A DNA stretch of 16,193 nucleotides from an uncultured Clostridia bacterium (GTDB lineage Bacteria; Bacillota; Clostridia; Oscillospirales; Ruminococcaceae). Position 1 is the stretch's first letter; every line of letters starts with the position of its first letter. Made by a program: the position numbers and the translations under genes. The notes below the pieces were generated by a model. The model ran no database searches. It saw nothing but the letters and a program-made list of their open reading frames with translations, and was not told where the DNA came from. The stretch spans positions 1 through 16,193 of the forward strand of contig CAMVBT010000020.1 in the NCBI GenBank assembly GCA_947165805.1. The letters are read 5' to 3'. Positions 702 through 16,193 of this stretch are shown here, piece after piece.

Positions 702-722
702 TTATCTGAAAGGGACTTATGT

Positions 723-1175: not shown

Positions 1176-1187
1176 GGAGAAAGCGCT

Positions 1188-1613
1188 ATGAAAATGGACA
1201 TAGAGCAGATAAAGGAAATAATCCCGCACCGTGACCCGTTCCTGCTGATAGACGAGATCGAGGAGATCGAGGTAGGGCAGAGAGTGGTCGCGCTGAAGCA
1301 TATCAAGGCGGACGATTTCTGGTTCAAAGGACATTTCCCGGATTACCCGGTAGTACCCGGCGTGCTGATCCTTGAAATGCTCGCGCAGGCCGGAGCCGTG
1401 GCTATGCTGGCTCTGCCCGAGAACAAGGGAAAGATCGGATTTTTCGGCGGCGTCAAGGAAGCGAAGTTCCGCAGACAGGTAGTCCCCGGCGATACCCTGC
1501 GCCTCGAAGTAGAGATAATCAAGGTCAAGGGCCCCGTAGGAGTAGGCAAGGGCATAGCCACCGTCAACGGAGAAAAGGCCTGCACCGCAGAAATTACATT
1601 CGCAATTAAGTAG
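1188..1613 (+). CDS. fabZ: 3-hydroxyacyl-ACP dehydratase FabZ
   Basis: Dehydrates (3R)-hydroxyacyl-ACP to trans-2-enoyl-ACP in each fatty acid elongation cycle. The protein has 141 residues and the hot-dog fold signatures of Fab[13 protein letters not shown] near residue 11, then [19 protein letters not shown] with catalytic His49 and Glu63, and a central [18 protein letters not shown] segment. The start at 1188 has AAGGAG at 1174-1179, overlapping the accB stop, with 8-nt spacing. ATG at 1194 is an in-frame alternative with a worse distance. Its position between accB and accC is the common Firmicute order. The stop TAG (1611-1613) abuts a dispersed repeat: its last base is the first base of the repeat unit. 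Confidence 0.96.
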
Positions 1614-1752
1614 TCGCTTCGCTCGAGAACGGGAACAAGAAGCCGCTTACGCTCGAGTTGCCTCCGGCGGCCAGCCCTTTTAAAAAAGGGCCGGCTCCTA
1701 AAACAAATCGCTTCGCCTTGCAGCGGGGGTAGGTAGTGCGCCTTTTGAAGAT
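1613..1752 (+). repeat. composite intergenic repeat, copy 1 (fabZ-accC gap)
   Basis: Fills much of the otherwise unexplained 215-bp gap between fabZ and accC. Three modules are visible in order. First come two units of the type GTCGCTTaCGCTCGAG (1613-1627, one base shorter, and 1642-1657). Second is an imperfect hairpin with arms 1670-1681 and 1684-1695 (11 of 12 pairs, AA loop). Third is CGCTTCGCCTTGCAG (1709-1723), then AGGTAGT (1731-1737), then CCTTTTGA (1741-1748). The same three modules in the same order and orientation recur at 5830-5982, with identical spacing inside module three. No T-run follows the hairpin, so it is not an obvious terminator. It contains no ORF worth calling. Confidence 0.8.
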
Positions 1753-1828
1753 ACCTGACAGGTAAAACCCTGAGTTGTAAGTGACCGGAAAGCACCCATA
1801 AAAAAGCTTGTATAAACGGAAAATAAAG

Positions 1829-3172
1829 ATGATAGATAAGATACTTATTGCCAACCGCGGCGAGATAGCGCTCAGAATTATCCGAGCGTGCCGCGAGCTC
1901 GGCATCGAGACCGTAGCGGTGTATTCCACCGCGGATAAAAACGCGCTCCACGCGCAGATAGCCGACAGATCGGTCTGCATCGGCGGCCCCAGAAGCACCG
2001 AAAGCTACCTCAATTCGAGAGCTATTCTCGCCGCCTGCGAGATAACCGGCGCTCAGGCTATACACCCGGGCTTCGGATTCCTGTCCGAGAGCAGCCGCTT
2101 CGTGCGCCTCTGCAATAAGTGCGGCATCAAGTGGATAGGCCCCGGTGCCGACGCCATGGACTCCATGGGCGACAAGGCCAACGCCAAGCTCACGATGATG
2201 AATGCCGGAGTTCCCGTGGTCATGGGCTCCGAGGGCGTGGTAAAAGACCTCGATGAGGCAAAGCGCATCGCTAAGGAGATAGGCTACCCCGTACTCGTCA
2301 AGGCAAGCGCGGGCGGCGGCGGACGCGGCATCAGACGTGCCGACAGCGAGAAAGAGCTGGAGCCCGCGGTCACTGCCGCGAAGCAGGAAGCTCTGCGCTT
2401 CTTCGGCAACGACGATATATATATAGAAAAGTTCATCGTGAACCCGCGTCATATCGAGATACAGATACTCGCGGACGAGCACGGCAACGTGATACATCTC
2501 GGCGAGCGCGACTGCTCCTGCCAGAGACGGCGTCAGAAGGTGCTCGAGGAATCCCCGAGCCCGATAATGACCCCGGAGCTCCGCGAGAAAATGGGCGAGG
2601 CAGCCGTGAAGGCCGCAAAGGCGTGCGGCTACACCAACGCCGGAACGGTGGAATTCCTTGTTGACAAGGACAGGAATTTCTATTTCATGGAAATGAACGC
2701 GCGCATACAGGTCGAGCACCCCGTCACGGAAATGGCGGCGGATATCGACCTTGTGAAGCAGCAGATACTCATTGCGAGCGGTCTGCCGCTGGATATAAAG
2801 CAGGAGGACGTGCACCTGAGCGGTCACGTCATCGAGTGCCGCATAAACGCCGAGGATCCGAAGAACGGCTTCAGGCCTTCCCCGGGAAAGATAGAGTCCA
2901 TACACGTCCCCGGAGGATTCGGCATAAGGATAGACACCGCGGCTTATCAGGGCTATGAGATACCGCAGTATTACGACAATATGATAGCAAAGCTGATCGT
3001 CCGCGGCAGGGACAGAGCCGAGGCGATAACGAAGATGAAGGTGGCTCTCGGCGAGATGCTCATAGAGGGCGTACAGACCAACATAGACTATCAGCTCAGC
3101 CTGCTGCGGGACAGCGAATTCATGAAGGGTCAGTTCGACATAGGCTTCCTTGACCGCAAGGACTTTTCATAA
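1829..3172 (+). CDS. accC: acetyl-CoA carboxylase, biotin carboxylase subunit
   Basis: ATP-dependent carboxylation of biotin on AccB with bicarbonate, the first half-reaction of acetyl-CoA carboxylase. From the ATG at 1829 the protein has 447 residues, as usual for AccC. The order is an N-terminal biotin carboxylase domain (IDKILIANRGEIALRIIRA, IHPGFGFLSE), an ATP-grasp domain (Lys116 in MGDK, Gly-rich KASAGGGGRGI at 158-168, His208 in PRHIEIQ), then the catalytic loop MEMNARIQVEHPVTE with Glu288, Asn290, Arg292 and Glu296, and Arg338 in ECRINAEDP. A TTG at 1808 would add seven residues but has no suitably placed ribosome binding site. The chosen start has only a weak GGAAAA (1818-1823). No convincing promoter was seen in the preceding gap. 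Pyruvate carboxylase is excluded by length and by the neighbours. Confidence 0.96.
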   Translation: MIDKILIANRGEIALRIIRACRELGIETVAVYSTADKNALHAQIADRSVCIGGPRSTESYLNSRAILAACEITGAQAIHPGFGFLSESSRFVRLCNKCGIKWIGPGADAMDSMGDKANAKLTMMNAGVPVVMGSEGVVKDLDEAKRIAKEIGYPVLVKASAGGGGRGIRRADSEKELEPAVTAAKQEALRFFGNDDIYIEKFIVNPRHIEIQILADEHGNVIHLGERDCSCQRRRQKVLEESPSPIMTPELREKMGEAAVKAAKACGYTNAGTVEFLVDKDRNFYFMEMNARIQVEHPVTEMAADIDLVKQQILIASGLPLDIKQEDVHLSGHVIECRINAEDPKNGFRPSPGKIESIHVPGGFGIRIDTAAYQGYEIPQYYDNMIAKLIVRGRDRAEAITKMKVALGEMLIEGVQTNIDYQLSLLRDSEFMKGQFDIGFLDRKDFS

Positions 3173-3193
3173 CGAACGGAGTGGATTATTTAA

Positions 3194-4102
3194 ATGGCAT
3201 TGGAGGATCTTTTCAAGGTCGTAAAGGACAGATCCAAGGCAGACGTAAAACCGAAGGAGCCTAAGGCGAAGAAGCCCGGCGCCGGCGTTGAGATACCGCA
3301 GGGACTTCTGTTCAAGTGCCCGAGATGCGGCTCGGTGTCGTACAGGGACGACTTCGAGCGCAACAAGTCGGTTTGCGGCGCGTGCAACTACCATGCGAGG
3401 ATAAGCGCGAGAACGCGTCTGGAGATGACCGCGGACAAGGACACTTTCACCGAGCTTGACGCGGGACTGACTTCGATGAACCCGATAGACTTCCCCGGCT
3501 ATGAGGCGAAGATATCCGCTCTGCGCGAGAGCTGCGGGATAAACGAAGCCGTTATAACGGGCGTGTGCCGCATACACCGCTACAATACCGTCATAGGCAT
3601 CATGGACAGCAACTTCATGATGGCGAGCATGGGCAGCGTTGTGGGCGAGAAGATAACAAGAGCATTTGAATACGCCACCGAGCACGAGCTCCCCGTGGTG
3701 CTGTTCACGGCATCGGGCGGCGCGAGAATGCAGGAGGGCATAATCTCCCTCATGCAGATGGCGAAGACCTCGGGCGCCGTGGCAAGACACAGCGCGGCAG
3801 GCCAGCTCTATGTAACGGTAATGACGGACCCGACGACGGGCGGCGTGACCGCTTCGTTCGCGAGCCTCGGCGATATAATAATAGCCGAGCCCAAGGTGCT
3901 GATAGGCTTCGCGGGCAGGCGCGTGATACAGGACACGATAAAGCAGCAGCTCCCCGATGATTTCCAGTCCGCCGAGTTCATGCTTGAGAACGGCTTCGTG
4001 GATATGATCGTAGAGCGCAAGAATATGCGTTCGACGCTCTCAAAGGTGTTCAGGACGCACAACTACACCCGTGACGGTGATTATGTGGGAGGCGGCAGAT
4101 AA
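3194..4102 (+). CDS. accD: acetyl-CoA carboxylase carboxyltransferase subunit beta
   Basis: With AccA it transfers the carboxyl group from carboxybiotin to acetyl-CoA, giving malonyl-CoA. At 302 residues it has the normal length. The N-terminal zinc ribbon characteristic of AccD is intact (Cys42, Cys45, Cys61, Cys64; CPRC...CGAC). The crotonase-fold core follows, with TASGGARMQEGIISLMQM, MTDPTTGGVTASFASLGDI and EPKVLIGFAGRRVIQ. The start at 3194 is 21 nt after accC, with GGAG at 3178-3181 (12-nt spacing, a little long). The stop codon shares one base with the accA start (TAATG), which suggests translational coupling and equal synthesis of the two subunits. Confidence 0.97.
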   Translation: MALEDLFKVVKDRSKADVKPKEPKAKKPGAGVEIPQGLLFKCPRCGSVSYRDDFERNKSVCGACNYHARISARTRLEMTADKDTFTELDAGLTSMNPIDFPGYEAKISALRESCGINEAVITGVCRIHRYNTVIGIMDSNFMMASMGSVVGEKITRAFEYATEHELPVVLFTASGGARMQEGIISLMQMAKTSGAVARHSAAGQLYVTVMTDPTTGGVTASFASLGDIIIAEPKVLIGFAGRRVIQDTIKQQLPDDFQSAEFMLENGFVDMIVERKNMRSTLSKVFRTHNYTRDGDYVGGGR

Positions 4103-4908
4103 TGAACGATCTTACGGCTACCGAAAGACTTGCCGTTATCCACATGAAGGGCAGACCCACGGTAAGAGACTACATACCCGCGCTGTTCGGGAACTTCCTT
4201 GAGCTTCACGGAGACAGGCATTACGGCGACGACGCGGCCATAATCGGCGGAGTCGGGACATTCGGCGGAAAGCCGGTCACAGTCATCGCGCAGGTGAAGG
4301 GACGCAACCTTGAGGAGAACAAGCGCTCGAATTTCTCGATGCCGCATCCCGAGGGCTACCGCAAGGCTCTGCGCCTTGCGAAGCAGGCCGAGAAATTTCA
4401 CAGACCCGTTATATGTCTCGTCGATACACCCGGCGCTTTCTGCGGCATAGAGGCCGAGAAGCGCGGACAGGGCGAGGCTATAGCCCGGAACCTTATGGAA
4501 TTCATGACGCTGAAAACGCCTATCATCTCCATAGTGCTCGGAGAGGGCGGCAGCGGCGGAGCCCTTGCTCTCGCGGTCTGCGACGAGCTGGCGATGCTGG
4601 AGAACGCGCTTTACTCGGTCATTTCGCCCCGCGGATTTGCTTCCATACTCTGGAAGGACGCTTCCCGCGAGTCGGAGGCTGCCGAGCTGATGAAGATAAC
4701 CGCCGAAGATCTGGTAAAATTCGGCGTGTGCGAGCATATAATAGATGAGCCGGACGGCGGAGCTCACAACGACCCCGCGCTCACTTCCGAGAACATCTCC
4801 GACTATCTCGCCGACGCGATACAGCGGCTCTCCGCCATTGACACGGATAAGCTGCTTGAACGGCGATACGAAAAATTCCGGAAAATAGGCGTTTTTGCCG
4901 AAAGCTGA
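4102..4908 (+). CDS. accA: acetyl-CoA carboxylase carboxyltransferase subunit alpha
   Basis: Partner of AccD in the carboxyltransferase half-reaction. It has 268 residues, the short form common in Firmicutes; the roughly 50-residue N-terminal helical extension of the E. coli protein is absent. Landmarks are YGDDAAIIGG, SMPHPEGYRKALRL, the oxyanion-forming VDTPGAFCGIEAEKRGQGEAIARNL, IVLGEGGSGGALAL and SVISPRGFASILWKD, then GGAHNDP near the C-terminus. The start at 4102 overlaps the accD stop by one base and is served by GGGAGG at 4087-4092 (9-nt spacing). It is the last gene of the packed acc operon. Downstream lie 154 non-coding bases with the acpP promoter. Confidence 0.97.
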   Translation: MNDLTATERLAVIHMKGRPTVRDYIPALFGNFLELHGDRHYGDDAAIIGGVGTFGGKPVTVIAQVKGRNLEENKRSNFSMPHPEGYRKALRLAKQAEKFHRPVICLVDTPGAFCGIEAEKRGQGEAIARNLMEFMTLKTPIISIVLGEGGSGGALALAVCDELAMLENALYSVISPRGFASILWKDASRESEAAELMKITAEDLVKFGVCEHIIDEPDGGAHNDPALTSENISDYLADAIQRLSAIDTDKLLERRYEKFRKIGVFAES

Positions 4909-4917
4909 CAGGTAAGA

Positions 4918-4941
4918 TGTGCAATGTGCTTAAAATGCACA
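4918..4941. promoter_or_regulatory. dyad between accA and acpP
   Basis: Inverted repeat TGTGCA (4918-4923) and TGCACA (4936-4941) separated by 12 bases, just after the accA stop. No clear T-run follows, so it is a weak terminator candidate. It could equally be a protein binding site about 50 bp upstream of the acpP -35 box. It does not resemble a FapR consensus that I can recall. The function is unassigned. Confidence 0.3.
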
Positions 4942-4964
4942 GATAAATTTGTTGTAAATTGCTA

Positions 4965-5018
4965 ATTTTTTAAAAAATACAAAAAGCTATTGATTTTTTG
5001 CGCAGTATCATTTATAAT
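4965..5018 (+). promoter_or_regulatory. sigma-A promoter of acpP with AT-rich upstream element
   Basis: -35 TTGATT at 4990-4995, 17-bp spacer, consensus -10 TATAAT at 5013-5018; the predicted start is near 5025. A perfect A/T palindrome, ATTTTTTAAAAAAT (4965-4978), sits just upstream of the -35 box in the position of an UP element. This gives acpP a strong promoter independent of the acc operon. The leader is about 38 nt and ends with AAGGAGG at 5048-5054, 8 nt before the start codon. Confidence 0.85.
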
Positions 5019-5062
5019 GATATTGCGATAAGAACAAACATAAATATAAGGAGGCAGCAATT

Positions 5063-5296
5063 ATGATTTTTGATAAGGTTAAGAGCATCATCGCAGATCA
5101 GCTCGACGTGGAGGAGGATAAGATCACACAGAGCTCCAACATACAGGACGATCTCGGCGCGGATTCCCTTGATATAGTTGATCTCGTTATGAGCTTCGAG
5201 GACGAATTCGATATCGAGATACCCGACGATCAGGTTGAGAATATCAAGACTGTCGGCGATATCGTAAAATATATCGAAGAGAACACCGAAGACTGA
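5063..5296 (+). CDS. acpP: acyl carrier protein
   Basis: Small acidic carrier (77 residues) that holds acyl chains on a 4'-phosphopantetheine arm during fatty acid synthesis and phospholipid assembly. The attachment Ser35 lies in the canonical [15 protein letters not shown] motif before helix II. The rest, [10 protein letters not shown] and [12 protein letters not shown], fits primary-metabolism ACP rather than polyketide or D-alanyl carrier proteins. The ribosome binding site AAGGAGG (5048-5054) is ideal. It has its own promoter upstream and its own terminator immediately downstream, so it forms a monocistronic unit that can be expressed well above the acc genes. This agrees with ACP being among the most abundant proteins in bacteria. 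Confidence 0.96.
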
Positions 5297-5309
5297 TAAA
5301 AAGCAGAGC

Positions 5310-5340
5310 CCGCCCGGTATGACCGGGCGGTTTTTGTTTT
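5310..5340 (+). terminator. Rho-independent terminator of acpP
   Basis: A 9-bp perfect GC-rich stem, CCGCCCGGT (5310-5318) with ACCGGGCGG (5322-5330), a 3-nt loop, then TTTTTGTTTT (5331-5340). It starts 13 nt after the acpP stop and ends about 20 nt before the glycosylase start, so the next gene must depend on readthrough or on a promoter not visible here. Confidence 0.93.
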
Positions 5341-5359
5341 CAGAGAGGAGCCCCGTCCT

Positions 5360-5854
5360 ATGCAGTATGAGCACATAACCCACGGCTTTCCGCCCGTGTA
5401 TGAAGAAAACAGCAGGATACTGATACTCGGGAGCCTGCCGTCCGTCAAGTCCCGTGAGCAGCAGTTCTACTACGGACATCCGCAGAACCGTTTCTGGAAA
5501 GTCCTCGCCGCGGTAACAGACGACGAGCTCCCGCAGACGACCGAGGAAAAGAGAGCCTTTCTGCTGAAACACCGCATAGCGCTCTACGACGCGATATACG
5601 AGTGCGACATAGCGGGTTCGTCGGATTCGAGCATACGCAATATAGTCCCCACAGACCTCAAACCCATACTCTCGGCAGCACACATAGCCGCGATCTTCAC
5701 CAACGGCGGCACCGCCTCCCGCGTATATAAAAAGTATCACCTGCCCGTCACCGGCATCGAGGCCGTCCCCCTCCCCTCCACAAGCCCCGCCAACGCCGCG
5801 TGGAGCCTGAACAGGCTGATGACAGAATGGTCGCTTGCGCTCGAGAGTCGCTGA
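5360..5854 (+). CDS. DNA-deoxyinosine glycosylase (uracil-DNA glycosylase superfamily, family 6-like)
   Basis: Predicted base-excision repair enzyme that removes deaminated bases (hypoxanthine, possibly uracil) from DNA. It has 164 residues. The fold motif ILILGSLPSVKSREQQFYYGHPQN covers about residues 20-43, with a candidate catalytic Asn43 in GHPQN, equivalent to the Asn of hypoxanthine-DNA glycosylases. The second conserved loop is PSTSPAN at 139-145. GSLPS in place of GxDPG separates it from classical family 1 and 4 UDGs. The start at 5360 has GAGGAG at 5345-5350 (9-nt spacing). The last seven residues (158-164) and the stop are encoded by units of a dispersed repeat, so the native C-terminus may have been altered. 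Substrate preference is inferred from the family. Confidence 0.85.
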   Translation: MQYEHITHGFPPVYEENSRILILGSLPSVKSREQQFYYGHPQNRFWKVLAAVTDDELPQTTEEKRAFLLKHRIALYDAIYECDIAGSSDSSIRNIVPTDLKPILSAAHIAAIFTNGGTASRVYKKYHLPVTGIEAVPLPSTSPANAAWSLNRLMTEWSLALESR

Positions 5855-5982
5855 CGCTCGAGAGGTCGCTTACGCTCGAGCCCGGGGGAAAACTTTTCTG
5901 AAGAAAAGTTTTCCCCCGGACCCCCTTTCAAAAGACTTTGACCGCTTCGCCTTGCAGATTCGTCAGGTAGTACCCCTTTTGA
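5830..5982 (+). repeat. composite intergenic repeat, copy 2 (3' end of the glycosylase gene)
   Basis: Three units of GTCGCTTrCGCTCGAG start at 5830, 5847 and 5865; the middle one reads GTCGCTGACGCTCGAG. Next is a perfect 18-bp inverted repeat with arms 5882-5899 (CCGGGGGAAAACTTTTCT) and 5902-5919 and a 2-nt loop. Then come CGCTTCGCCTTGCAG (5943-5957), AGGTAGT (5965-5971) and CCTTTTGA (5975-5982). Module order and the spacing within the last module match copy 1 at 1613-1752. The first unit and part of the second lie inside the glycosylase reading frame. The very strong hairpin is not followed by a T-run, so its effect on transcription is uncertain. Confidence 0.85.
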
Positions 5983-6009
5983 GGGTAAAGGGAATGTAAA
6001 CTATAAAAA

Positions 6010-6043
6010 AACTGCTCCTGTCGAAAGGAGCAGTTATTATTTT
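6010..6043. terminator. bidirectional terminator between convergent genes
   Basis: Stem AACTGCTCCT (6010-6019) with AGGAGCAGTT (6026-6035) and a 6-nt loop. It is followed on the + strand by ATTATTTTA and, read on the - strand, by a run of T from the A-run at 6005-6011. It could end both the glycosylase transcript and any nifJ readthrough. Confidence 0.8.
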
Positions 6044-6070
6044 ACTCGGACTTTTCCTTCTTCCCCCAAG

Positions 6071-6099
6071 AAAAAACGCTCCCTGCGAACAGGGAGCGT
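6071..6099 (-). terminator. Rho-independent terminator of nifJ
   Basis: Read on the - strand: a perfect 10-bp stem ACGCTCCCTG / CAGGGAGCGT closed by a TTCG tetraloop (arms 6090-6099 and 6076-6085) and followed by a T-run from the A-run at 6071-6076. It begins 12 nt beyond the nifJ stop codon. The UUCG loop makes this an especially stable hairpin. Confidence 0.92.
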
Positions 6100-6111
6100 C
6101 TTCTGTGTTAC

Positions 6112-9100
6112 TTATGCTTTGTAGTAATCAACGAGTCTTACGAGATCGTCGTACTTATGCTTGCTGTTTTCGATAGCGATACCGAACAGCTTTTCAGCTC
6201 TCTCGGGGTTAGCACGTGCGAGGGAGTTGTAACGAACTTCACGCATCATGAAGGTCTTGTAGTCGCCTGTCGGAGCCTTGCTGTCGAGTGTGAACTTCTG
6301 CTCTGCGTCAGGATTGAATCTGAACAGGTGCCAGTAGCCTGCTTCAACAGCTTCCTTCTCTACCTGCTGAGCGATTGTAAGACCGCCCTTGATACCATGG
6401 TTGATGCACGGTGCATAGCAGATGATGAGCGAAGGTCCGTTGTAAGCCTCAGCCTCTGCGAACGCCTTGATGCACTGGTTTCTGTCTGCGCCCATAGCTA
6501 CCTGAGCAACATATACATAACCATACTTCATAACGATGCCTGCAAGATCCTTCTTCTTGACAGCCTTACCGCCTGCCGCGAACTGTGCTACCGCACCGAT
6601 GTTCGTAGCCTTGGAAGCCTGTCCGCCTGTGTTGGAGTAAACTTCGGTATCGAATACGAGAACGTTAACGTTCTTTCCGCTTGCGAGGACGTGGTCAACA
6701 CCGCCGTAACCGATGTCATAAGCCCAGCCGTCGCCGCCGAAGATCCAGACGGACTTCTTGGAGAGGTAGTTCTTGAGCTTCAGTACTTCTGCCTTCTCTG
6801 CGTTGTCGCAGTCGCAAGCCTCGAGCTTTGCTACGAGAGCTTCGGTAGCTGCAAGGTTGGCAGCGCCGTCATCAGCTGTCTCAAAGTACTTGTCGATGAG
6901 TTCCTTGGTCTCGGGCTTTGCTGTCTCTGCAAGAGCCTTGAGGTGCTGCTGAGCTCTGCCGCGGAGTGTATCCTGTGCAAGGAACATACCGAGACCGTAT
7001 TCTGCGTTATCCTCGAAGAGGGAGTTGCCCCATGCGGGACCGCGGCCCTGCTTGTTGGTCGTGTAAGGAGTCGAAGGCTCGGAACCGCCCCAGATGGACG
7101 AGCAGCCTGTAGCGTTGGCGATATACATTCTGTCGCCGAAGAGCTGTGTAACGAGCTTAGCGTAAGGAGTCTCGCCGCAGCCTGCGCAGGCGCCGGAGAA
7201 TTCAAGCAGCGGCTGCTTGAACTGCGAACCCTTGACTGTTGTGGGCTTGAACTTTTCGAGAACTTCGGGCTTGTCGGAAGTCTTGATAGCATAATCGAAG
7301 TACTTCTGCTCGCCTTCCTGTGTCTCGAGACCCTTCATAACGAGAGCCTTTGTCTTAGCGGGACATACGTTAGCGCAGACACCGCAGCCTGTGCAGTCCA
7401 GAACGGAGATGCCCATAGCGAACTTGTAGCCCGCCATACCGGTCATATCCTTCATCTTCATGCCCTCGGGAGCCTTGGCAGCCTCGTCAGCGTTCAGAGC
7501 GAACGGACGGATAACGGCGTGCGGGCAGGCCATGGAGCACATATTACACTGGATGCAGTTCTCGGGGATCCACTCGGGAACGTCAACGGCGATGCCGCGC
7601 TTCTCGAATGCTGCAGTACCCTGCGGGAACGTACCGTCAGCGATGTCAACGAATGTCGATACGGGTATCGAGTTGCCGCGCTGTGCGTTTACGGGGATCT
7701 GTACCTTGTTGATGAAGTCGATGAGGAACTTGTTGTCGCCCTCTGCGTGATGTGTCGGGAGTGTGCCCTCAGCGTTTGCCCACGAAGCGGGAACGTCTAC
7801 CTTGATAACTTCGCCTGCGCCCTTGTCGATAGCGGCGTAGTTCATGTTGACAACATCGTCGCCCTTCTTTGCGAACGACTTGTAAGCCATCTTTTTCATG
7901 TAGTCGATAGCGTCCGCAGCGGGAATGATGTTGGCGATAGAGAAGAACGCGGACTGGAGAACGGTGTTGGTTCTGTTGCCGAGGCCTATCTCCTTCGCTA
8001 CCTTGATAGCGTTGATGATATAGAAGTTGATGTTGTTCTTCGCGATATAAGCCTTAACGGGAGCGGGGAGCTTCTCGTCGAGCTCGTCAACTGTCCACTG
8101 GGTGTTCAGCAGGAACGAACCGCCGGGGTTAACGTCCTGTACCATATCGTACTTGTCGATATAGGACGGGTTGTGGCAGGCAACGAAGTCAGCCTTGTTA
8201 ACGAAGTATGTGGACTTGATCGGGGACTTGCCGAAGCGCAGATGCGAGATCGTTACGCCGCCGGACTTCTTGGAGTCATACTCGAAGTAAGCCTGAGCGT
8301 ACATATCGGTGTGGTCGCCGATGATCTTGATCGAGTTCTTGTTCGCGCCGACAGTACCGTCAGAACCGAGACCCCAGAACTTGCAGCATGTTGTGCCTTC
8401 GGGAGTGGTGTTCGGATTTTCGGTGATCGGGAGCGAGAGATTGGTGACATCATCGTTGATACCGATTGTGAAGCGGGGCTTCTCGGTATTGTTGTAAACG
8501 GAGATGATCTGAGCGGGGGTAACGTCCTTGGAACCGAGGCCGTATCTGCCGGTGTATACGGGAACGTCCTGGAACTTGCCTTCCTGCTTGAGAGCCGCAA
8601 CTACGTCGAGGTAGAGCGGTTCGCCTATGGAGCCGGGCTCCTTTGTTCTGTCGAGAACTGTGATCTTCTTTACAGTGGACGGGATAGCCGCAGCGAATGC
8701 GGAAGAAACGAACGGTCTGTACAGTCTTACCTTTACGAGGCCGACCTTCTTGCCCTGCTTGAGGAGGTAGTCGATTGTTTCCTCGATAGTATCGTTTACG
8801 GAACCCATAGCAACTATTACCTGCTCCGCGTCGGGTGCGCCGTAGTAGTTGAAGAGCTTGTAGTCGGTACCGATCTCGGCATTGACCTTGTCCATATACT
8901 CGGTAACTATGCCGGGTATCTTGTCATAGTAGGTGTTGGATGCCTCTCTTGCCTGGAAGAAGATGTCGGGGTTCTGTGCCGAGCCGTGGAGAACAGGCTG
9001 CTCGGGGTTGAGGGCTCTGTTTCTGAACGCGGCGACAGCGTCCTTGTCTACCATCTTGTCGAGTGTATCGTAATCCCATACCTCGATCTTCTGTATCTCG

Positions 9101-9633
9101 TGAGATGTTCTGAAACCGTCAAAGAAGTGGAGGAACGGTACTCTGCCCTTGATAGTCGAGAGATGAGCTACCGCGCCGAGGTCCATGACTTCCTGCGGGT
9201 TTGTGGAGCACAGCATAGCGTAGCCTGTCTGACGGCAAGCGTAGATATCGCTGTGATCGCCGAAGATCGAAAGAGCATGGGAAGCGAGCGCACGGGCCGA
9301 TACGTGGATAACGTTCGGGAGCAGCTCACCTGCGATCTTGTACATATTCGGGATCATCAGAAGGAGTCCCTGAGAAGCGGTGTATGTGGTCGTGAGAGCA
9401 CCTGCCGAAAGGGAACCGTGTACAGCACCTGCTGCGCCGCCCTCGGACTGCATCTCTACGATCTGCACTTCCTGACCGAAAATGTTCTTTCTGCCTTGCG
9501 TTGCCCATGTGTCCGTTACTTCTGCCATTACGGACGACGGGGTAATGGGGTAGATCGCCGCTACTTCCGTGAACGCGTACGAGACGTGTCCGGCAGCGTT
9601 GTTACCGTCCATTGTAAGTTTTTGTCTTGCCAT
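6112..9633 (-). CDS. nifJ: pyruvate:ferredoxin (flavodoxin) oxidoreductase, single-chain
   Basis: Oxidises pyruvate with CoA to acetyl-CoA and CO2, reducing ferredoxin; the central fermentative step in strict anaerobes. It has 1173 residues from ATG 9633, typical of the homodimeric enzyme. Domain I has Thr31 in YPITPSS, Glu64 in SEGGAAGA and Arg114 in SARALASH. Two 4Fe-4S sets follow: Cys693/696/699/703 and Cys747/750/753/757. The proximal cluster uses Cys816 and Cys819 (CAGCG), Cys844 (NATGC) and Cys1076 (CINHG). The thiamine diphosphate motif runs from GGDGWAYDIG (966-975) to Asn1001 in EVYSNTGGQ. The start at 9633 is fixed by AAGGAGG (9644-9650) and by the family N-terminus; the frame is open further upstream but not family-like. 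Codon choice (mostly ATC for Ile) suggests high expression. Confidence 0.97.
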   Translation of the reverse strand: MARQKLTMDGNNAAGHVSYAFTEVAAIYPITPSSVMAEVTDTWATQGRKNIFGQEVQIVEMQSEGGAAGAVHGSLSAGALTTTYTASQGLLLMIPNMYKIAGELLPNVIHVSARALASHALSIFGDHSDIYACRQTGYAMLCSTNPQEVMDLGAVAHLSTIKGRVPFLHFFDGFRTSHEIQKIEVWDYDTLDKMVDKDAVAAFRNRALNPEQPVLHGSAQNPDIFFQAREASNTYYDKIPGIVTEYMDKVNAEIGTDYKLFNYYGAPDAEQVIVAMGSVNDTIEETIDYLLKQGKKVGLVKVRLYRPFVSSAFAAAIPSTVKKITVLDRTKEPGSIGEPLYLDVVAALKQEGKFQDVPVYTGRYGLGSKDVTPAQIISVYNNTEKPRFTIGINDDVTNLSLPITENPNTTPEGTTCCKFWGLGSDGTVGANKNSIKIIGDHTDMYAQAYFEYDSKKSGGVTISHLRFGKSPIKSTYFVNKADFVACHNPSYIDKYDMVQDVNPGGSFLLNTQWTVDELDEKLPAPVKAYIAKNNINFYIINAIKVAKEIGLGNRTNTVLQSAFFSIANIIPAADAIDYMKKMAYKSFAKKGDDVVNMNYAAIDKGAGEVIKVDVPASWANAEGTLPTHHAEGDNKFLIDFINKVQIPVNAQRGNSIPVSTFVDIADGTFPQGTAAFEKRGIAVDVPEWIPENCIQCNMCSMACPHAVIRPFALNADEAAKAPEGMKMKDMTGMAGYKFAMGISVLDCTGCGVCANVCPAKTKALVMKGLETQEGEQKYFDYAIKTSDKPEVLEKFKPTTVKGSQFKQPLLEFSGACAGCGETPYAKLVTQLFGDRMYIANATGCSSIWGGSEPSTPYTTNKQGRGPAWGNSLFEDNAEYGLGMFLAQDTLRGRAQQHLKALAETAKPETKELIDKYFETADDGAANLAATEALVAKLEACDCDNAEKAEVLKLKNYLSKKSVWIFGGDGWAYDIGYGGVDHVLASGKNVNVLVFDTEVYSNTGGQASKATNIGAVAQFAAGGKAVKKKDLAGIVMKYGYVYVAQVAMGADRNQCIKAFAEAEAYNGPSLIICYAPCINHGIKGGLTIAQQVEKEAVEAGYWHLFRFNPDAEQKFTLDSKAPTGDYKTFMMREVRYNSLARANPERAEKLFGIAIENSKHKYDDLVRLVDYYKA

Positions 9634-9754
9634 TGGAAAACAACCTCCTTTAATTTTAACGGCGTGTTTTTTTGCTTCCGCGCCGTATTGCATTACCCTT
9701 CCGTGACTTTCTGACGCTTTTTCGTCATACCCTCTCAAAAGCGGTATGCACTAT
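9634..9754 (-). other. nifJ leader with possible upstream ORF
   Basis: About 120 nt separate the predicted transcription start (near 9754) from the nifJ start codon. The leader contains an 11-codon ORF on the - strand (9728-9693, MTKKRQKVTEG). Its TAA overlaps an ATG (9693) that is in frame with nifJ. It also contains a 6-bp inverted repeat (ACGGCG / CGCCGT) before the ribosome binding site. I recognise no riboswitch class here. The leader may simply be untranslated. Confidence 0.3.
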
Positions 9755-9768
9755 AACAATATCATACC
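9743..9768. promoter_or_regulatory. operator-like dyad over the nifJ -10 box
   Basis: Inverted repeat GGTATG (9743-9748) and CATACC (9763-9768), with 14 bases between, covers the nifJ -10 hexamer and the predicted start site. A repressor bound here would block initiation. It does not match the Rex consensus I know (TTGTTAA-type arms). The regulator is unassigned. Confidence 0.35.
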
Positions 9769-9789
9769 ACATTTTTACCAATTTGTAAA
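9761..9789 (-). promoter_or_regulatory. sigma-A promoter of nifJ
   Basis: Read on the - strand: -35 TTTACA (9789-9784), 17-bp spacer, extended -10 TGG-TATGAT (hexamer 9766-9761), with the predicted start near 9754. The spacing is ideal and a TGn extension is present, consistent with strong expression of a central metabolic enzyme. Confidence 0.8.
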
Positions 9790-9838
9790 CAGGAAAATTC
9801 AATTTTTTCTCGTTTTTTGAAAAATAATCCTCTCTCCA

Positions 9839-9867
9839 TTGACATATTTTTTTTAATAGTGTATAAT
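9839..9867 (+). promoter_or_regulatory. consensus sigma-A promoter of tRNA-Pro
   Basis: Perfect TTGACA (9839-9844) and perfect TATAAT (9862-9867) with a 17-bp spacer, about 30 nt upstream of the tRNA 5' end. It is divergent from the nifJ promoter, with about 50 bp between the two -35 boxes. Confidence 0.92.
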
Positions 9868-9897
9868 AGTACCACAATTCTTTTTTATATTGTATAT

Positions 9898-9973
9898 CGG
9901 GGCGTAGCGCAGGTGGTAGCGCGCCTGCTTTGGGAGCAGGATGTCGTCAGTTCGAGTCTGGTCGCCCCGACCA
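9898..9973 (+). tRNA. tRNA-Pro (anticodon UGG)
   Basis: A 76-nt cloverleaf including the encoded CCA. The acceptor stem is CGGGGCG / CGCCCCG (7 pairs). The D arm has GCGC stems around AGGTGGTA. The anticodon stem CCTGC / GCAGG has loop TTTGGGA, giving anticodon TGG. The variable loop is 5 nt. The T arm GTCAG / CTGGT has two G-U pairs and loop TTCGAGT, followed by discriminator A and CCA (9971-9973). UGG can read all CCN codons by wobble when suitably modified. It has its own promoter and terminator and is not in a tRNA cluster. Confidence 0.97.
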
Positions 9974-10260: not shown

Positions 10261-13200
10261 TCAGTATTTCCGGAAGCCCTGTACGAGCCTCATTATCAGC
10301 AGCCACGCAGTCTGCCATGCCATTATGATCTCGGGTATGAACGCCGCGGTGTTCGAGGTGAACGCCATGTAGATCATCAGCAGTACGCCGAGTATGATCC
10401 CGGCTATCGTGATGTTGCGCGAGACCGCCACGTCCTTTATCAGTTTCTTTGCGGAGTTGACGCCCTTGGCGAGCGATACGAAGCTGCCGGAGCAGGACAT
10501 CGCGCCGCAGCCGCTTGTCGTGTACTTCGTACATTCGCCGTACAGGTCGTGCAGGCTCGAGCCTATCATCTTGATCTTTTCGGGGTCCACGTCGAACAGG
10601 TCGGTTATCCTTCCTATCGTCATCAGCGAGTCGGTGGTCTTGAGTATCACCGATACGCCGCGGCCGGTGAGCTCTCTGATATTTGCCTTTACCACCGGGT
10701 TCGCGGTCAGCCTGATGAAGAATATCACCGCCAGCTCGCCGCCCACAGCGAGATATACGCTGTCCGAGCCGTTGCGCGAATACTTTGCAATCGCGCCGAG
10801 CTCCGGTATCTTTATGCTGTGGTGCTTCATGTGCTCACGGCTGCCCATGAATACGCGCTTGTTGCCGTACCAGCCCATGACGCCCATATTGTCCTCATAA
10901 ACACAGCCGTCGATGTCCGCCAGCATATCCTTGTTGCCGCCGATCATATCGAAGAACAGTCCCGAGAGCACCGAGCCGCTCTTTATCGCCAGCGACGCCG
11001 CAAGGATTATCGCCGTGTCGAGGGATATGTTGTTGATGGAATTCTGCTGCTTGCAGGGCTTTATGTTCGTGATCTCCACCGCCGACTTCGGGAACAGTGT
11101 GCTTGCGTCCATGAGCACCGAGTTTGTACCGGCGAATTCCTCCGCCGAGGTATACCCGAGCAGGGTGCAGCCGTTATGCAGCATTTTCTTTGTCGCGCGG
11201 CTGAACGGGGTGTTTACCATGAACATCATGGAGAACGGTGCCATAGCGCACAGGACTCCGGTGAGCACCGAGCTTGCCCAGTACATATTGTTGTCGAATA
11301 CATTCACGCCGTTTATCGTCACGCCCGAAGGTATGAAGTACACCAGCAGACCGATGACGGCAGCGGTTATCGCGGATATCGGAACGAGCCTTCTCGCGAC
11401 TCTGTCCGCCATATCCTCGCAGTAGCTCTTTTTCAGGAAATCCGTCAGCAGCTCGGTCTTGCGCAGGGTAACGAGATACGGCAGCTCGGAAACGACACCT
11501 TTCGCGAATGCCGACGCCTCGCTTTGTCCGTCGATGACCTCGGCGTAGTATTTTGCCGCGTCAGTGGATATGAAGCGGTAGTTCTTCTTTGCGCGGGATA
11601 TCATGCTCAGCTTTCCGAAGGAGTTGAACAGCAGCCCCAGCAGAGCCACGGGGATATAGATGAACGAGCGTCCCTGCTGCAAGTCGTTGGTATCGACCAG
11701 CTGCAGCACCGCCGCCAGCAGCGATATCACGCAGCTCACGGCGCATACGCTGTCGCAGTCCGAGCGATTCCGGAACAGCTTTGCAAGGCCTGTCCGTATG
11801 ACGGCGGAGCATATCACCATGCCTATGACTCCGCAGATGAGGTTCATATAAACGACGCCGTCGTTGCTGAGGAAGCCCAGCTCGTTGCCGAAAAATCCGA
11901 GCTTCTGCTTTATGAATATCCGCTGTGCTATATCGGCTCCGATGAGCCCCAGCGTCACGATCAGGAGCAGCGCGAACCGTATGCGCAGGCTCTTGTGTGT
12001 CTCAACGAGATCGGTCCATATCCCCGCGAAGTCCTCGTCAGCGGGCAGCTCGTCGGTATCGGAGTCAAAATCGACGTCTTCGTCCGAAATATCCTCCAGC
12101 ACGAAGTTTGAGATGCGGCGTCTGCGCTTTGCGGCGAGCTCCTTGACCTTCTGCTCCGCGACTGCGGGGTCATTCTTCGGTATCTCGCCCGTTCGCAGCA
12201 CCGTGCCGCCCTCGGAGTCGAGCCTTACCGTTCTCGTCGGTATCACTATCTTGTCGAAAGGCCCCGTGCCGATATCCGAAAGCGGGTTGGTATCCTGCTT
12301 TTCGGCCAGACGGTTCTGTTCAAGGGTACGGTTTATCGACTGTATTACCTGTTCTTCCTCCTCGGTGCGCTTGCGCACCTCCTTGGTGTCGTGGGTCTTG
12401 GGTATGAATTCCTTTATATCGTCGGCAAGCTCCATCGTCTTGTCCGGGTCCATGCCGTCGGGAGTGCTTTCCCGGCTGAGGTCGGGCATCACGCGGGTAG
12501 CGCCGTCCACGATGCGCTCTATCGGGCGGGTATCGTCCGGGACGGACTGCGCGGCGAGGGTCTTGAGCGCCTCGGGGTCAATAAGTCTCGTGTCACCGGA
12601 GAGCTGCTCGGCGGAGATCGTGTCGATCTGATCGGTCACGTCCGCTTTTTTTCCGAACTCATAGGGGTTCATAGCGTTCAGGAAGTCGTCCGGGTCATCG
12701 AGCTCGGTCTCCTTGATAAGCAGTTTCTGCGCGTCTATCTCGATCTTCTGCTGCCGCAGTGAGCGCTCGATCTCAAGCTGAATGGTGGTGGGCTGAACGC
12801 CCTCGCCGTCTTCTCCGGTCTCCGGCGCCCCGGGCATCTCTATCGGCGCGTCCGTGAGTATTATGCTCTTTGTCGCGAGGCGTCTTTCGGCTTCGTCGTC
12901 CGCTCTTCTGCGGCGCTTTTCCTCGCGTTCCTCTATTTTTCTGCGTTCTTCCTCGGTCTTTGCGGCCGCGGCATCTTCGACGGCCTTGCGGCGTTTGGCC
13001 TCCTCCGCGTCGAAGCGGCGTTTTTCCTCGCGCTCCTGTCTGCGTTTCTCTGCCTCGATGCTCTGGGCTTCCTTTTCTTCCTGCTTCTGCTTTTCCGCCA
13101 GCTTCGCCTGAGATATCTCATTAGCCTTGGCGGCTGCCGCCTCACGGCGCTTTCTTTCCTCCTCGGCCTCGCGGAGCCTGCGTTCGGCTTCCTCGCGTTC

Positions 13201-13644
13201 GCGGCGCTTTCTGGCTTCCTGCTCCCGGCGCTGTTTTTCCTCACGTTCGCGGCGTTTCTGTTCGGCCTGTTCTTTCCGGAGCCTTTCTTCCTGCTCGCGG
13301 CGGGCTTTCTCTTCCTGCTCTTTCCGCAGCTTCTCTTCCTGCTCACGGCGCTGCTTTTCCTCAAGCTCCATTCGCAGTTTTTCTTCGCGCTCCTGTTTTT
13401 CCTGCTGCTCCATGCGCAGCTTTTTCTCATCGGCGCCGTTTGCGGACGCGGGCTTTTCTGCGCCGAAGTTCAGTTCGGCTGTGCGCTCTTTGCGCTGTTT
13501 CAGGTTCCCGCGCATACGGTCGTCCGATCTCGACTCTTCGCCGAGTATCGAGCTCAATATATCATCGGCATCTATTTCTTCTGTTCTGCTGCCGTCTTTT
13601 TTTCCGTACTTGTCGAGTATATCGTCAAGTGAGAACTCGGACAT
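10261..13644 (-). CDS. large membrane protein: charged helix fused to a degenerate P-type ATPase-like module
   Basis: Not a gene I can name. It has 1127 residues. Residues 1-72 are acidic, with two DDIL motifs. Residues 73-257 form an Arg/Glu/Lys-rich helix with an 8-residue period. Residues 258-550 are a low-complexity linker. Membrane segments lie near 556-575, 598-616, 631-651, 661-675, 753-772 and 787-810. A cytosolic part (811-1075) and two more segments follow (about 1077-1096 and 1099-1117). The order resembles a P1-type ATPase: CAMAPFSM in place of the CPC helix, NSVLMDASTLFP where VVFDKTGTLT belongs (Asp846 kept, the rest lost), an N-domain-like GVMGWYGNKRVFMGS, and SVILKTTDS for the TGD motif. 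TGES and GDGxxND are absent, so ion pumping is unlikely. The ribosome binding site AAGGAGA (13654-13660) supports the start. It lies 31 nt after rlmB, probably in one transcript. The ATPase relation is inferred from motif order. Confidence 0.8.
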   Translation of the reverse strand: MSEFSLDDILDKYGKKDGSRTEEIDADDILSSILGEESRSDDRMRGNLKQRKERTAELNFGAEKPASANGADEKKLRMEQQEKQEREEKLRMELEEKQRREQEEKLRKEQEEKARREQEERLRKEQAEQKRREREEKQRREQEARKRREREEAERRLREAEEERKRREAAAAKANEISQAKLAEKQKQEEKEAQSIEAEKRRQEREEKRRFDAEEAKRRKAVEDAAAAKTEEERRKIEEREEKRRRRADDEAERRLATKSIILTDAPIEMPGAPETGEDGEGVQPTTIQLEIERSLRQQKIEIDAQKLLIKETELDDPDDFLNAMNPYEFGKKADVTDQIDTISAEQLSGDTRLIDPEALKTLAAQSVPDDTRPIERIVDGATRVMPDLSRESTPDGMDPDKTMELADDIKEFIPKTHDTKEVRKRTEEEEQVIQSINRTLEQNRLAEKQDTNPLSDIGTGPFDKIVIPTRTVRLDSEGGTVLRTGEIPKNDPAVAEQKVKELAAKRRRRISNFVLEDISDEDVDFDSDTDELPADEDFAGIWTDLVETHKSLRIRFALLLIVTLGLIGADIAQRIFIKQKLGFFGNELGFLSNDGVVYMNLICGVIGMVICSAVIRTGLAKLFRNRSDCDSVCAVSCVISLLAAVLQLVDTNDLQQGRSFIYIPVALLGLLFNSFGKLSMISRAKKNYRFISTDAAKYYAEVIDGQSEASAFAKGVVSELPYLVTLRKTELLTDFLKKSYCEDMADRVARRLVPISAITAAVIGLLVYFIPSGVTINGVNVFDNNMYWASSVLTGVLCAMAPFSMMFMVNTPFSRATKKMLHNGCTLLGYTSAEEFAGTNSVLMDASTLFPKSAVEITNIKPCKQQNSINNISLDTAIILAASLAIKSGSVLSGLFFDMIGGNKDMLADIDGCVYEDNMGVMGWYGNKRVFMGSREHMKHHSIKIPELGAIAKYSRNGSDSVYLAVGGELAVIFFIRLTANPVVKANIRELTGRGVSVILKTTDSLMTIGRITDLFDVDPEKIKMIGSSLHDLYGECTKYTTSGCGAMSCSGSFVSLAKGVNSAKKLIKDVAVSRNITIAGIILGVLLMIYMAFTSNTAAFIPEIIMAWQTAWLLIMRLVQGFRKY
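13171..13386 (-). repeat. 24-bp period coding repeat (8-residue ER/K units)
   Basis: Codes residues 87-158 of the large membrane protein. Nine consecutive octads follow the pattern E-E-K-x-R-x-E-Q, for example EEKLRKEQ and EEKARREQ, drifting to EARKRRER and EEAERRLR at the C-terminal end. The 8-residue phase, rather than 7, argues for a stable single alpha helix over a canonical coiled coil. The repeat structure at DNA level suggests growth by unit duplication. Confidence 0.8.
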
Positions 13645-13675: not shown

Positions 13676-14407
13676 CTATGCTTTGTTCCTTATACGCACT
13701 ATCTCGTACATCAGTACCGCCGCGCTCACCGAAGCGTTCAGCGAATTTATCTTCCCGTACATATCTATCGAAACTATCCTGTCGCAGCTCTCACGCACAA
13801 GTCTCCCGAGGCCGCTGCCCTCGGAGCCTATGACGAGCGCTATCGGGCCGGACATATCCGCGTCCCTGAACGGCTCGCCGTCCATATCCGCGCCGTACAC
13901 CCACACGCCCCGATCTTTGAGCTGCTTTATGGCGTCCACAAGGTTCGGCACTCTCGCCGTCTTCACATAGCTCGCCGCTCCGGCAGATGTCTTGAACACC
14001 GTCGCCGTGAGCCCGACGCTCCTGCGTTTCGGTATTATGATACCGTCGGCACCCGCGGCTTCGGCGGTGCGTATTATCGCGCCGAGGTTGTGCGGGTCCT
14101 GTATCTCGTCCGCTATTATGATGAACGGCGGCTTGCCCTTGCGCTCCGCCTCCGCGAAGATGTCGTCGATATCCGCGTACTCCGCCGCCGACATGAGAGC
14201 CGCGACTCCTCCGTGCTTTTCTCCTCCGGACAGCTCGTCGAGCTTGTCCGCGGAAACGTCCTTCACCACGGCGCCGTTTTCCTTCGCGAGAGCTATCAGC
14301 TTCCCGAGGCCTCCGGCTCCGCGCTGGACATACACCGTGTCTATGGTTTTCCCGGCTTTCAGCGCTTCGGTGACCGCGTTTCTTCCGTATATGATCTGTT
14401 CCTGCAT
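13676..14407 (-). CDS. rlmB: 23S rRNA (guanosine-2'-O-)-methyltransferase, SpoU/TrmH family
   Basis: SAM-dependent 2'-O-methylation of an RNA guanosine, most likely in 23S rRNA (E. coli RlmB acts on G2251); substrate identity is inferred. It has 243 residues, the usual length. The N-terminal substrate-binding domain (IYGRNAVTEAL, about 1-75) is followed by the SPOUT knot domain. Motif 1 is DEIQDPHNLGAIIRTAEAAGA (100-120; Asn107, Arg113). Motif 2 is ALVIGSEGSGLGRLV (190-204). Motif 3 is INSLNASVSAAVLMYE (220-235; Asn224). The knot motifs are intact. The start at 14407 has a modest ribosome binding site (AAGGCAGG). Its own promoter lies about 90 nt upstream. The large membrane protein gene follows after 31 nt. 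Confidence 0.93.
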   Translation of the reverse strand: MQEQIIYGRNAVTEALKAGKTIDTVYVQRGAGGLGKLIALAKENGAVVKDVSADKLDELSGGEKHGGVAALMSAAEYADIDDIFAEAERKGKPPFIIIADEIQDPHNLGAIIRTAEAAGADGIIIPKRRSVGLTATVFKTSAGAASYVKTARVPNLVDAIKQLKDRGVWVYGADMDGEPFRDADMSGPIALVIGSEGSGLGRLVRESCDRIVSIDMYGKINSLNASVSAAVLMYEIVRIRNKA

Positions 14408-14578: not shown

Positions 14579-15517
14579 TTATTTCATGTGTACATCAAGC
14601 TGCTGATAAGGTATCTCGATGTTCTGCGCTATGAATTCGGCGCGTATCATCTCGATGATATCGAAATATACGTCCCAGTAATCCTCTGTATTGCACCATA
14701 CCCTCACCGCTATGTCGATGCTGCTGGTGTTGTGCGCGCACATACGGACAAACGGCTCGAAGCCCGGTTCGTCCAGAGCCTTCGGTATCCTGCCTATGGC
14801 TGTCTTTATCGCGTCGGCTGCCTTGTTGTAGTCCGTGTTATAGGATATCGAGAACACGTTGTCCACACGGCGCTTCGGAGCCTGCGTCACGTTGGTGAGC
14901 ACGGAATTGGCCGCTGTGCCGTTCGGTATGTAAACGGCGCGGTTATCCAGCGTCATGAGCTTCGTGTACAGGATATTTATGTCCGTGACCGTGCCCTCGA
15001 CACCCGCCACATTGATGTAGCTGCCGACTCTGAACGGCTTCGAGAACAGTATCAGGAAGCCCCCGGCAAGGTTCGACAGGCTGCTTTGCAGCGCCAGACC
15101 CACTGCCACGCCCGCGGTGCCTATGACCGCGATTATCGAGGTCGTCGGTACGCCGAGTACGGTAAGCACCACCGTTATCAGCACGGTATAAAGCACTATC
15201 TTTACTACCGAGCGCAGGAACTTCGTCACAGTCAGATCGAGCTTCGACTTGTCCAGCGCCTTGCCCATGAGCTTGACCGTTATCTTCGATATGATGATGC
15301 CGATTATAAGCAGTATTATCGCGAATATGATGACCGGCAGCTTTTCGAGAAAACTCTGCCACAGATCATTGAGTATCTTCTGGAGCCCCGAGATGTTCTC
15401 CGTGAGCTCCTCGCCGAGAACAAGGCTCATAGTCTCCCCGGGGTCTGCGGCGGGTTCGGGAGCCGCCGCTGCCGCTGTCTGAACGGCAGTCTCCGCGGCA
15501 AGCAGTTTATCAAGCAT
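14579..15517 (-). CDS. mscS: MscS-family small-conductance mechanosensitive channel
   Basis: Inner-membrane channel that opens on membrane tension to release solutes after osmotic downshock. It has 312 residues, close to E. coli MscS (286). An Ala/Pro-rich N-terminal extension (7-27) precedes TM1 (about 61-80), TM2 (about 104-122) and the pore-lining TM3 (about 126-160; AVIGTAGVAVGLALQSSL then LAGGFLILFSKPFRVG). The beta domain (INVAGVEGTV, AVYIPNG) and alpha/beta domain (YNTDYNKA, VRVWCNTEDYWDVYFDI) follow, ending in the family's PYxQxDVHMK tail. The start at 15517 has AAGGAGA (15524-15530) at 6-nt spacing; Met30 is a weaker alternative. Only 16 nt separate it from degV, so the two are an operon. 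Gly/Ala spacing in TM3 follows the MscS pattern. Confidence 0.94.
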   Translation of the reverse strand: MLDKLLAAETAVQTAAAAAPEPAADPGETMSLVLGEELTENISGLQKILNDLWQSFLEKLPVIIFAIILLIIGIIISKITVKLMGKALDKSKLDLTVTKFLRSVVKIVLYTVLITVVLTVLGVPTTSIIAVIGTAGVAVGLALQSSLSNLAGGFLILFSKPFRVGSYINVAGVEGTVTDINILYTKLMTLDNRAVYIPNGTAANSVLTNVTQAPKRRVDNVFSISYNTDYNKAADAIKTAIGRIPKALDEPGFEPFVRMCAHNTSSIDIAVRVWCNTEDYWDVYFDIIEMIRAEFIAQNIEIPYQQLDVHMK

Positions 15518-15533
15518 CTGCTGTCTCCTTTGT

Positions 15534-16193
15534 TCAGTGTCTCTTCTCGCCCTTTACGAATACGCCGATGAAGCTTGTGCCGGCGTTGGCGGCAACGACG
15601 CTTCCGACGCTGTGTATCATGGCAAGCTTACTGCCGGACTTCTGTTCGTATTTCTTTATGAATTCGTCCTCGGCCTCGGTCGCCAGCGAGCGTCCCACGA
15701 TGAACGGCGTCTTCGGCACGGCCCTTGTCATCAGGTAATCGACGAGAGCGTCAACGGCCTTCTTCTCGCCGCGGGGCTTCGCGACCACGGCGGTGTTTTC
15801 GTCTATCATCTGCACTATGGGCTTAATGTTCATGAGCTCGCCCATTACAGCCGCAGCCGCCTTGATCCTGCCGGACTTCTTGGCATGGCGCAGGTTGAAC
15901 AGCATCAGATAGAGCTCGCAGCTGTCGAACCAGTCATCGAGGTACGCGAGCACTCTGTCCATGCTCTGACCCGCCTCGAGCTTCTTTGCCGCTTCTACCG
16001 CCGCGTAGCCGTAGCCGAGCGAGTATGTGCGGCTGTCAAAGATATGGAAGCTCGTGTCGCCCGCTTTGCCTTCTTCCTTCATGCGGGCGGCGGCGTTGAC
16101 GGCGTTCTGGTATGTGGCGCTGCCGGCGCCGTTTATCAGAATGACTATGACGTCCTTTATGCCTTCCTTCACGCACTCGGCGAACTTCTCCTC
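15534..16193 (-). CDS. DegV family protein (fatty acid-binding), 5' end outside the window
   Basis: DegV/FakB proteins bind a fatty acid and in many Firmicutes present it to the kinase FakA. The gene continues past the right edge: reading is open in frame to 16193, so the GTG at 16172 is internal. 219 C-terminal residues of about 285 are visible. Landmarks are the ligand-contact segment NGAGSATYQNA, HIFDSRTYSLGYGYAAVEAA, LRHAKKSGRIKAAAAVMGELMNIKPIV (the DegV core signature) and the C-terminal SVGSVVAANAGTSFIGVFV. Where the family usually has a His before GPG (HxGPG) this protein has NAGTS, so the carboxylate-binding His seems to be missing. Binding of fatty acid is therefore uncertain. It is co-transcribed with mscS (16-nt gap). 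Confidence 0.88.
   Translation of the reverse strand, partial: EEKFAECVKEGIKDVIVILINGAGSATYQNAVNAAARMKEEGKAGDTSFHIFDSRTYSLGYGYAAVEAAKKLEAGQSMDRVLAYLDDWFDSCELYLMLFNLRHAKKSGRIKAAAAVMGELMNIKPIVQMIDENTAVVAKPRGEKKAVDALVDYLMTRAVPKTPFIVGRSLATEAEDEFIKKYEQKSGSKLAMIHSVGSVVAANAGTSFIGVFVKGEKRH

Follow-up and report, generated by a model that had tools for sequence, protein, structure and literature searches.

We report that the 16,193-nucleotide stretch analysed here (the window; contig CAMVBT010000020.1 of assembly GCA_947165805.1, from an uncultured Clostridia bacterium) encodes what we judge, with moderate confidence, to be a conserved pseudo-P1B-type ATPase that most likely acts as a membrane-anchored scaffold with a docking peptide at its tip. 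The gene occupies 10261..13644 on the minus strand, as do all of its parts described below, and its 1127-residue product joins a cytosolic arm (residues 1-544) to an ATPase-like body (residues 545-1127; 10264..12012). A copper-type pump is the probable ancestor; its phosphorylation, dephosphorylation and metal-binding signatures have been lost, an eight-helix membrane anchor and a cytosolic head (P and N domains) are retained, and catalytic activity would be absent. The folded head and the long arm would then keep partner proteins at the membrane, and a DDIL-type peptide near the arm tip would dock on a partner that may also recognise this peptide when it is carried by a small number of further envelope proteins, which would link the family to envelope biogenesis.

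The predicted model of the body (predicted local distance difference test score, pLDDT, 89.5) was assigned the P1B ATPase fold by Foldseek and by VIA-align. It contains phosphorylation (P), nucleotide-binding (N) and actuator (A) domains and eight predicted transmembrane (TM) helices, MA and MB included; hydropathy and profile comparison are further evidence for it, and the fold was likewise supported for a family member with 17% identity. A preliminary description of this DNA had read the C-terminal half as keeping the order of a P1-type ATPase, and this is borne out by the predicted structure, which is that of a P1B ATPase rather than of some other fold. Profile searches do detect the protein, if faintly, both falling under their cut-offs: Pfam E1-E2_ATPase gives 10.4 bits against 28.1, and NCBIfam TIGR01525 gives E 1.3e-10 and 40.8 bits against 346. 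In fold, in the order of the eight membrane helices and in its P and N domains, the protein is like the P1B copper ATPases (LpCopA, ATP7B; TIGR01525, PRK10671).

Unlike those pumps, it lacks DKTGT, TGE, GDGxND, CPC, HP and the P-domain Lys, its A domain is reduced, and its arm has no Cys-bearing metal domain. A motif scan of the window protein found no DKTGT, TGD, GDG or CPC, and found TGE solely inside the arm, at 276 and 485. The DKTGTLT position is held by DASTLFP (residues 846-852; 11089..11109), as placed by profile comparison and family alignment, and the TGD position by TTD (residues 1003-1005; 10630..10638). What remains of the A domain (residues ~693-744; 11413..11568) has a 35-residue deletion relative to canonical ATPases and aligns AKGV to TGES. 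Profile comparison further shows Leu in place of the P-domain Lys, GDGxND (from GIND onward) falling mostly inside a 28-residue deletion, and APF (residues 802-804; 11233..11241) replacing the CPC-type metal site of M4. In the N domain (residues ~853-967; 10744..11088), SGSVL is aligned to SEHPL, so that the HP motif is gone and both the Glu and the His of SEHP are lost, and N-M-G stands in the GxG position. The canonical ATPases used for comparison were selected by DKTGT, and their 17/17 for that motif therefore holds by construction. All the losses that the preliminary description had listed (DASTL for DKTGT, TTD for TGD, GDGxxND and the actuator TGES missing) were found again in the window protein.

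These losses are shared by the family. Neither DKTGT in the last 620 residues nor GDGxxND in the last 400 was found in any of 296 sequences, namely the window protein and 295 relatives (including the best 120 of 179 and the best 120 of 308); the count left out P0176, a low-scoring sequence (71.7 bits) in which both motifs are present. Two arms, those of L016 and L017, do contain a DKTGT string, and the arm of L056 contains one resembling GDGxxND; neither string occurs in any body. The first alignment omitted five loci. Three of these (L053, L059, L060) carry DKTGT and have no rlmB gene upstream; L052 is an orthologue, with rlmB upstream and a genome match (G050) at E 2.9e-74; and L032 is a copy interrupted by one TGA, with rlmB 1.1 kb away. 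D1005, G921 and G934 are nearly invariant, each being present in 295/296 sequences with a gap in the remaining one. The retention of Asp846 noted in the preliminary description holds for the window's own set (120/121, with one Glu) and fails elsewhere, Asp being found at this column in 1/55 Butyricicoccaceae-like and 0/120 Oscillospiraceae-like sequences. The catalytic Asp is therefore no fixed feature of the family, and a neighbouring Asp is common. A conserved pseudo-enzyme that keeps its fold, as the description had proposed, is thus supported, because the structure prediction and the homologue motifs, the two lines that it had named as able to overturn the idea, left it standing, and across a wider range than could be seen from one sequence; the scaffold or sensor role that it attached is one that we infer.

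The gene is a regular component of the genomes that carry it. Within the genus, it is strongly matched (E <= 1e-130) in 34/35 genomes, and in the order as a whole 226/245 genomes, the source genome counted, have a single match each at E <= 1e-50 (178/184 in the good-quality subset). A presence survey covering the class Clostridia (391 genomes) included 18 members of this order: in 17 of them the match spans almost all of the body at E <= 1e-90, and in the remaining one (G388) E is 3e-21. No orthologue match was found in the 373 Clostridia genomes outside the order, the best E of each never being under 7e-40; among the matches listed for them, coverage extends only over positions ~195-487, as expected of ordinary P-ATPases. 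In comparisons with five relatives, the body has a ratio of nonsynonymous to synonymous substitution rates (dN/dS) of 0.03-0.15, indicating purifying selection, and the arm one of 0.15-0.24 for the three relatives where it was computable. The motif loss and the low family-model scores might suggest a locally decayed gene, a pseudogene or an artefact of assembly; the probability of this is negligible, and the single matches across the order and the low dN/dS of the body speak against it.

Directly upstream, on the same strand, lies an rlmB/SpoU-type methyltransferase gene (13676..14407; Pfam SpoU_methylase E 3.1e-44), and the ATG of the pseudo-ATPase gene stands 31 bases past its end. This neighbour is conserved: an rlmB gene of the same orientation, no more than 1.5 kb upstream, accompanies 21/22 order-level loci (L049 is without it) and 58/60 named loci, the other two being contig ends. 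A fusion of RlmB to the body was considered from one record (P0172, 683 aa), in which a truncated RlmB is in frame with the body; it is probably a deletion between neighbours and was not used as evidence. By eye, an EF-G-like GTPase gene lies downstream of the pseudo-ATPase gene in five order-level loci (L032, L039, L041, L050, L052). The nearest named records come from gut metagenome-assembled genomes, rumen included, that are called Ruminiclostridium or Oscillospiraceae, the best with 96% identity across the body. Named records in the other two sets belong to Butyricicoccus, Intestinibacillus, Agathobaculum and Pseudoflavonifractor and bear the NCBI label hypothetical protein; JGI labels one relative 'Cu+-exporting ATPase' and another 'cation transport ATPase'. 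According to NCBI taxonomy, Intestinibacillus belongs to Butyricicoccaceae and Pseudoflavonifractor to Oscillospiraceae. We take the order carrying the family to be the Oscillospirales of GTDB, which agrees with these names.

The arm is the more changeable part of the protein. Its most conspicuous feature, a Glu/Arg/Lys-rich (ER/K) stretch at residues ~71-265 (12850..13434), is made up of 195 residues that include 56 E, 41 R and 26 K, with 40 pairs of E(i) with K/R(i+4) and 39 of K/R(i) with E/D(i+4). The long charged helix of the preliminary description is present in the window protein and is not general: ER/K stretches of 115-219 residues, as measured in a sliding window, occur in 8/50 arms, those of the window protein and L007-L013, shorter ones of 66-98 residues in 6/50, and none in 36/50. 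The ER/K form is thus concentrated in the window protein's clade without being strictly confined to it, and the helix was rejected as the defining part. The linker of roughly 290 residues that was said to follow it is likewise present (residues 266-544; 12013..12849), with the correction that short blocks inside it (DPDDFLNAMNPY, SGDTRLID, SINRTLEQNR, ISNFVLEDI) recur in part of the genus. Arm length ranges from ~110 to 610 residues across 50 arms, some near loci being cut by the locus end; the L047 arm has 14 residues, possibly a matter of its start site. The first 545 residues of the window protein contain no Cys, so that it lacks the metal-binding domains that P1B pumps usually have, and a metal-binding arm was rejected.

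Judged from the sequences of these arms, it is the DDIL-type tip peptide, not the ER/K helix, that recurs across families. In the window protein it reads EFSLDDILDK (residues 3-12; 13609..13638) and follows the pattern [FY]x[hydrophobic]DDIL close to the N-terminus; a second copy (residues 24-36, IDADDILSSILGE; 13537..13575) has its DDIL at 27 and no aromatic residue before it. The strict pattern was found in the first 60 residues of 121/121 sequences of the window's set, 114/120 of the Oscillospiraceae-like set and 4/55 of the Butyricicoccaceae-like set, and a relaxed pattern in the first 120 residues of 119/120, 118/120 and, in the Butyricicoccaceae-like set, 44/55 (shuffles <= 0.0007). Of 371 neighbouring open reading frames (ORFs), a single one has the strict pattern within its first 60 residues, and none has it within its last 30.

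The peptide also occurs on other proteins. In ten same-genus genomes, a DNA pattern for it ([FY]xx-type [DE][DE]ILx[DE]) gave 22 matches, as compared to 1 for the reversed pattern. These include six N-termini of the pseudo-ATPase, three N-termini of ABC-2 permeases (L139, L150, L151) and two extreme C-termini of a SipW-like membrane protein (L144, L149); the remaining 11 lie inside enzymes (by eye PfkB-like and MurC-like), in ORFs that are short or unclear and, in one case, at an ORF start (L145). The last, a 160-aa ORF on contig C124 of the source genome beginning MIFQFDDILID, is a possible further bearer. The L150 permease matches Pfam ABC2_membrane at E 4.7e-18, and among 18 ABC-2 loci the peptide was found in three, the long-armed L153, L154 and L155. 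L150, L153, L154 and L155 are export permeases of the ABC-2 type whose long N-terminal arm opens with a peptide of the NFNIDDILAEY or KFSIDDILAEI kind; most other ABC-2 relatives are armless.

The SipW-like family (L171-L189, plus L190) has matches in 20/41 genomes searched, and the [DE][DE][ILV]L core was found within the last 30 residues at 16/20 of its loci, being degenerate in L185. The SipW signal peptidase model matches this second membrane protein weakly (E 4e-6 to 9e-5 in 3/5 tested; L171 and L182 had no match). By eye, the canonical-looking L190 (E 6.9e-21) has SDSM where the five tested proteins have different residues, and in these five the catalytic Ser seems to have been lost. Like the pseudo-ATPase, this protein of the same genus combines an apparently lost catalytic residue with a long disordered-looking tail ending in a DDIL-type peptide. 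The folds are unrelated and its peptide is C-terminal, unlike that of the pseudo-ATPase, so that the two would work alike at most. Most of the checks on the SipW-like and ABC-2 families were made within one genus.

Another known protein that comes close is ERMA/TMEM94, an animal endoplasmic reticulum protein that shares a P-type fold, a degenerate phosphorylation loop and missing TGES and GDGxND, according to its description (PMC13322241). Unlike ERMA, which is there given ten TM helices and a GMN motif (PMC13322241), the window protein has eight predicted TM helices and no GMN; its family is moreover bacterial and P1B-derived, and does not keep the Asp family-wide. That source reports Mg2+ transport by ERMA despite similar motif losses, DKTGT being changed to DKQGI and GDGVND to GSSANL, and its authors call the nucleotide pocket inaccessible in the available structures (PMC13322241). 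The window protein might be a non-canonical transporter of this kind, moving an ion or lipid by its degenerate site, perhaps via Asp846 or a neighbouring Asp. The model retains the entire membrane part and the P/N head, and most members have an Asp at or beside the catalytic place. We nevertheless consider transport unlikely: the A domain is cut down, the P domain is without its GDGxND segment and Lys, the metal-site residues are gone, the Asp moves one column between families, and almost no polar residue of the membrane part is kept order-wide (the only polar or special TM residues kept in >=40/50 sequences are R556, G619, P803 and P813). Alternatively, the head might be a sensor: on binding a ligand, such as a nucleotide or a metal, it would alter the state of the arm and its partners. 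The near-invariance of G921 and G934 in the N domain and of D1005 speaks for this, as does the N domain being the least variable across all 50 sequences. The loss of the SEHP Glu and His and the Asn in place of the first Gly of GxG in the window protein speak against it, and the invariant Gly residues may be structural, so that we hold a sensor to be rather unlikely.

The loop in the DKTGT position reads DxD.FP (columns 847-852) in two families (P0121-P0175 and P0177-P0296), much as in HAD phosphatase motif I, but none of the remaining HAD motifs is preserved. Asp stands at both 847 and 849 in 120/120 Oscillospiraceae-like sequences each, and at 847 in 40/55 and at 849 in 53/55 of the Butyricicoccaceae-like ones. 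A HAD-type phosphatase is very improbable all the same, since profile comparison shows the acidic motif IV segment deleted and the motif III Lys replaced by Leu, and the window's own set is without the second Asp at 849.

The scaffold reading fits the variability within the body of 30 closer sequences, where mean entropy is 1.17 in the A, 1.25 in the N and 1.32 in the P domain as compared to 1.52 in the TM helices, the cytosolic domains thus being less variable than the membrane. Several observations weigh against it. The report on ERMA is the strongest caution. Over all 50 sequences there is little difference in entropy between the TM helices (2.34) and the A (2.32), P (2.25) and N (2.14) domains, and the head may bind some ligand, a possibility suggested by D1005 and the two nearly invariant N-domain Gly residues. 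The relaxed tip pattern was devised after inspection of the Butyricicoccaceae-like set, in which the strict one finds 4/55, and even the relaxed pattern finds the peptide in just 6/22 order-level loci (L031-L052). A narrower, earlier DNA pattern gave 30 matches in 36 genomes against 6 for its reversed control, a weaker contrast, and the SipW-like and ABC-2 families had no match in the source genome, which is 80% complete. For these last two reasons we have slightly lowered our estimate both for the scaffold and for a bolder proposal, which we regard as improbable: that DDIL-type peptides on the cytosolic tails of envelope proteins, namely the pseudo-ATPase, the SipW-like dead peptidase and the polysaccharide-export permease, have as their receptor either the dead P/N head itself or some partner held by it, the whole forming a docking hub.

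The source genome contains a second, unrelated degenerate P-type ATPase-like ORF (L005:1165-3582, plus strand, contig C192; 806 aa, running off the locus). It scores above the Pfam E1-E2_ATPase cut-off and, by eye, has DKNGM for DKTGT, LTGSK for TGES and TGETATDSD near the GDGxxND place; DKTGT is present in the other 4/5 P-ATPase matches of this genome. The rest of the window (78-9973 and 14579-16172) is ordinary by eye, with fatty-acid synthesis genes and pyruvate:ferredoxin oxidoreductase; it also holds a UDG-superfamily protein, an MscS gene, a DegV gene and a tRNA-Pro(tgg) at 9898-9973.

In the open-access literature searched we found no bacterial P-type ATPase pseudoenzyme, the nearest case being animal ERMA as described in the available part of PMC13322241, and nothing on pseudo-ATPases was seen in the accessible part of a review of P-type ATPase enigmas (PMC10654040). 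Searches of the same literature for this family (a gene with rlmB in Faecalibacterium, pseudoenzymes of the order, the peptide strings) likewise found nothing. The family is a core gene, lacking an annotated function, of an order to which butyrate-producing genera like Butyricicoccus and Agathobaculum belong, and it would provide a clean case for learning what a P-type fold is capable of when catalysis is presumably lost. The recurrent tip peptide offers a direct handle for finding its partner. If the docking hub were true, a bacterial order would have repurposed a copper pump, and a common peptide code would collect envelope machinery at the membrane.

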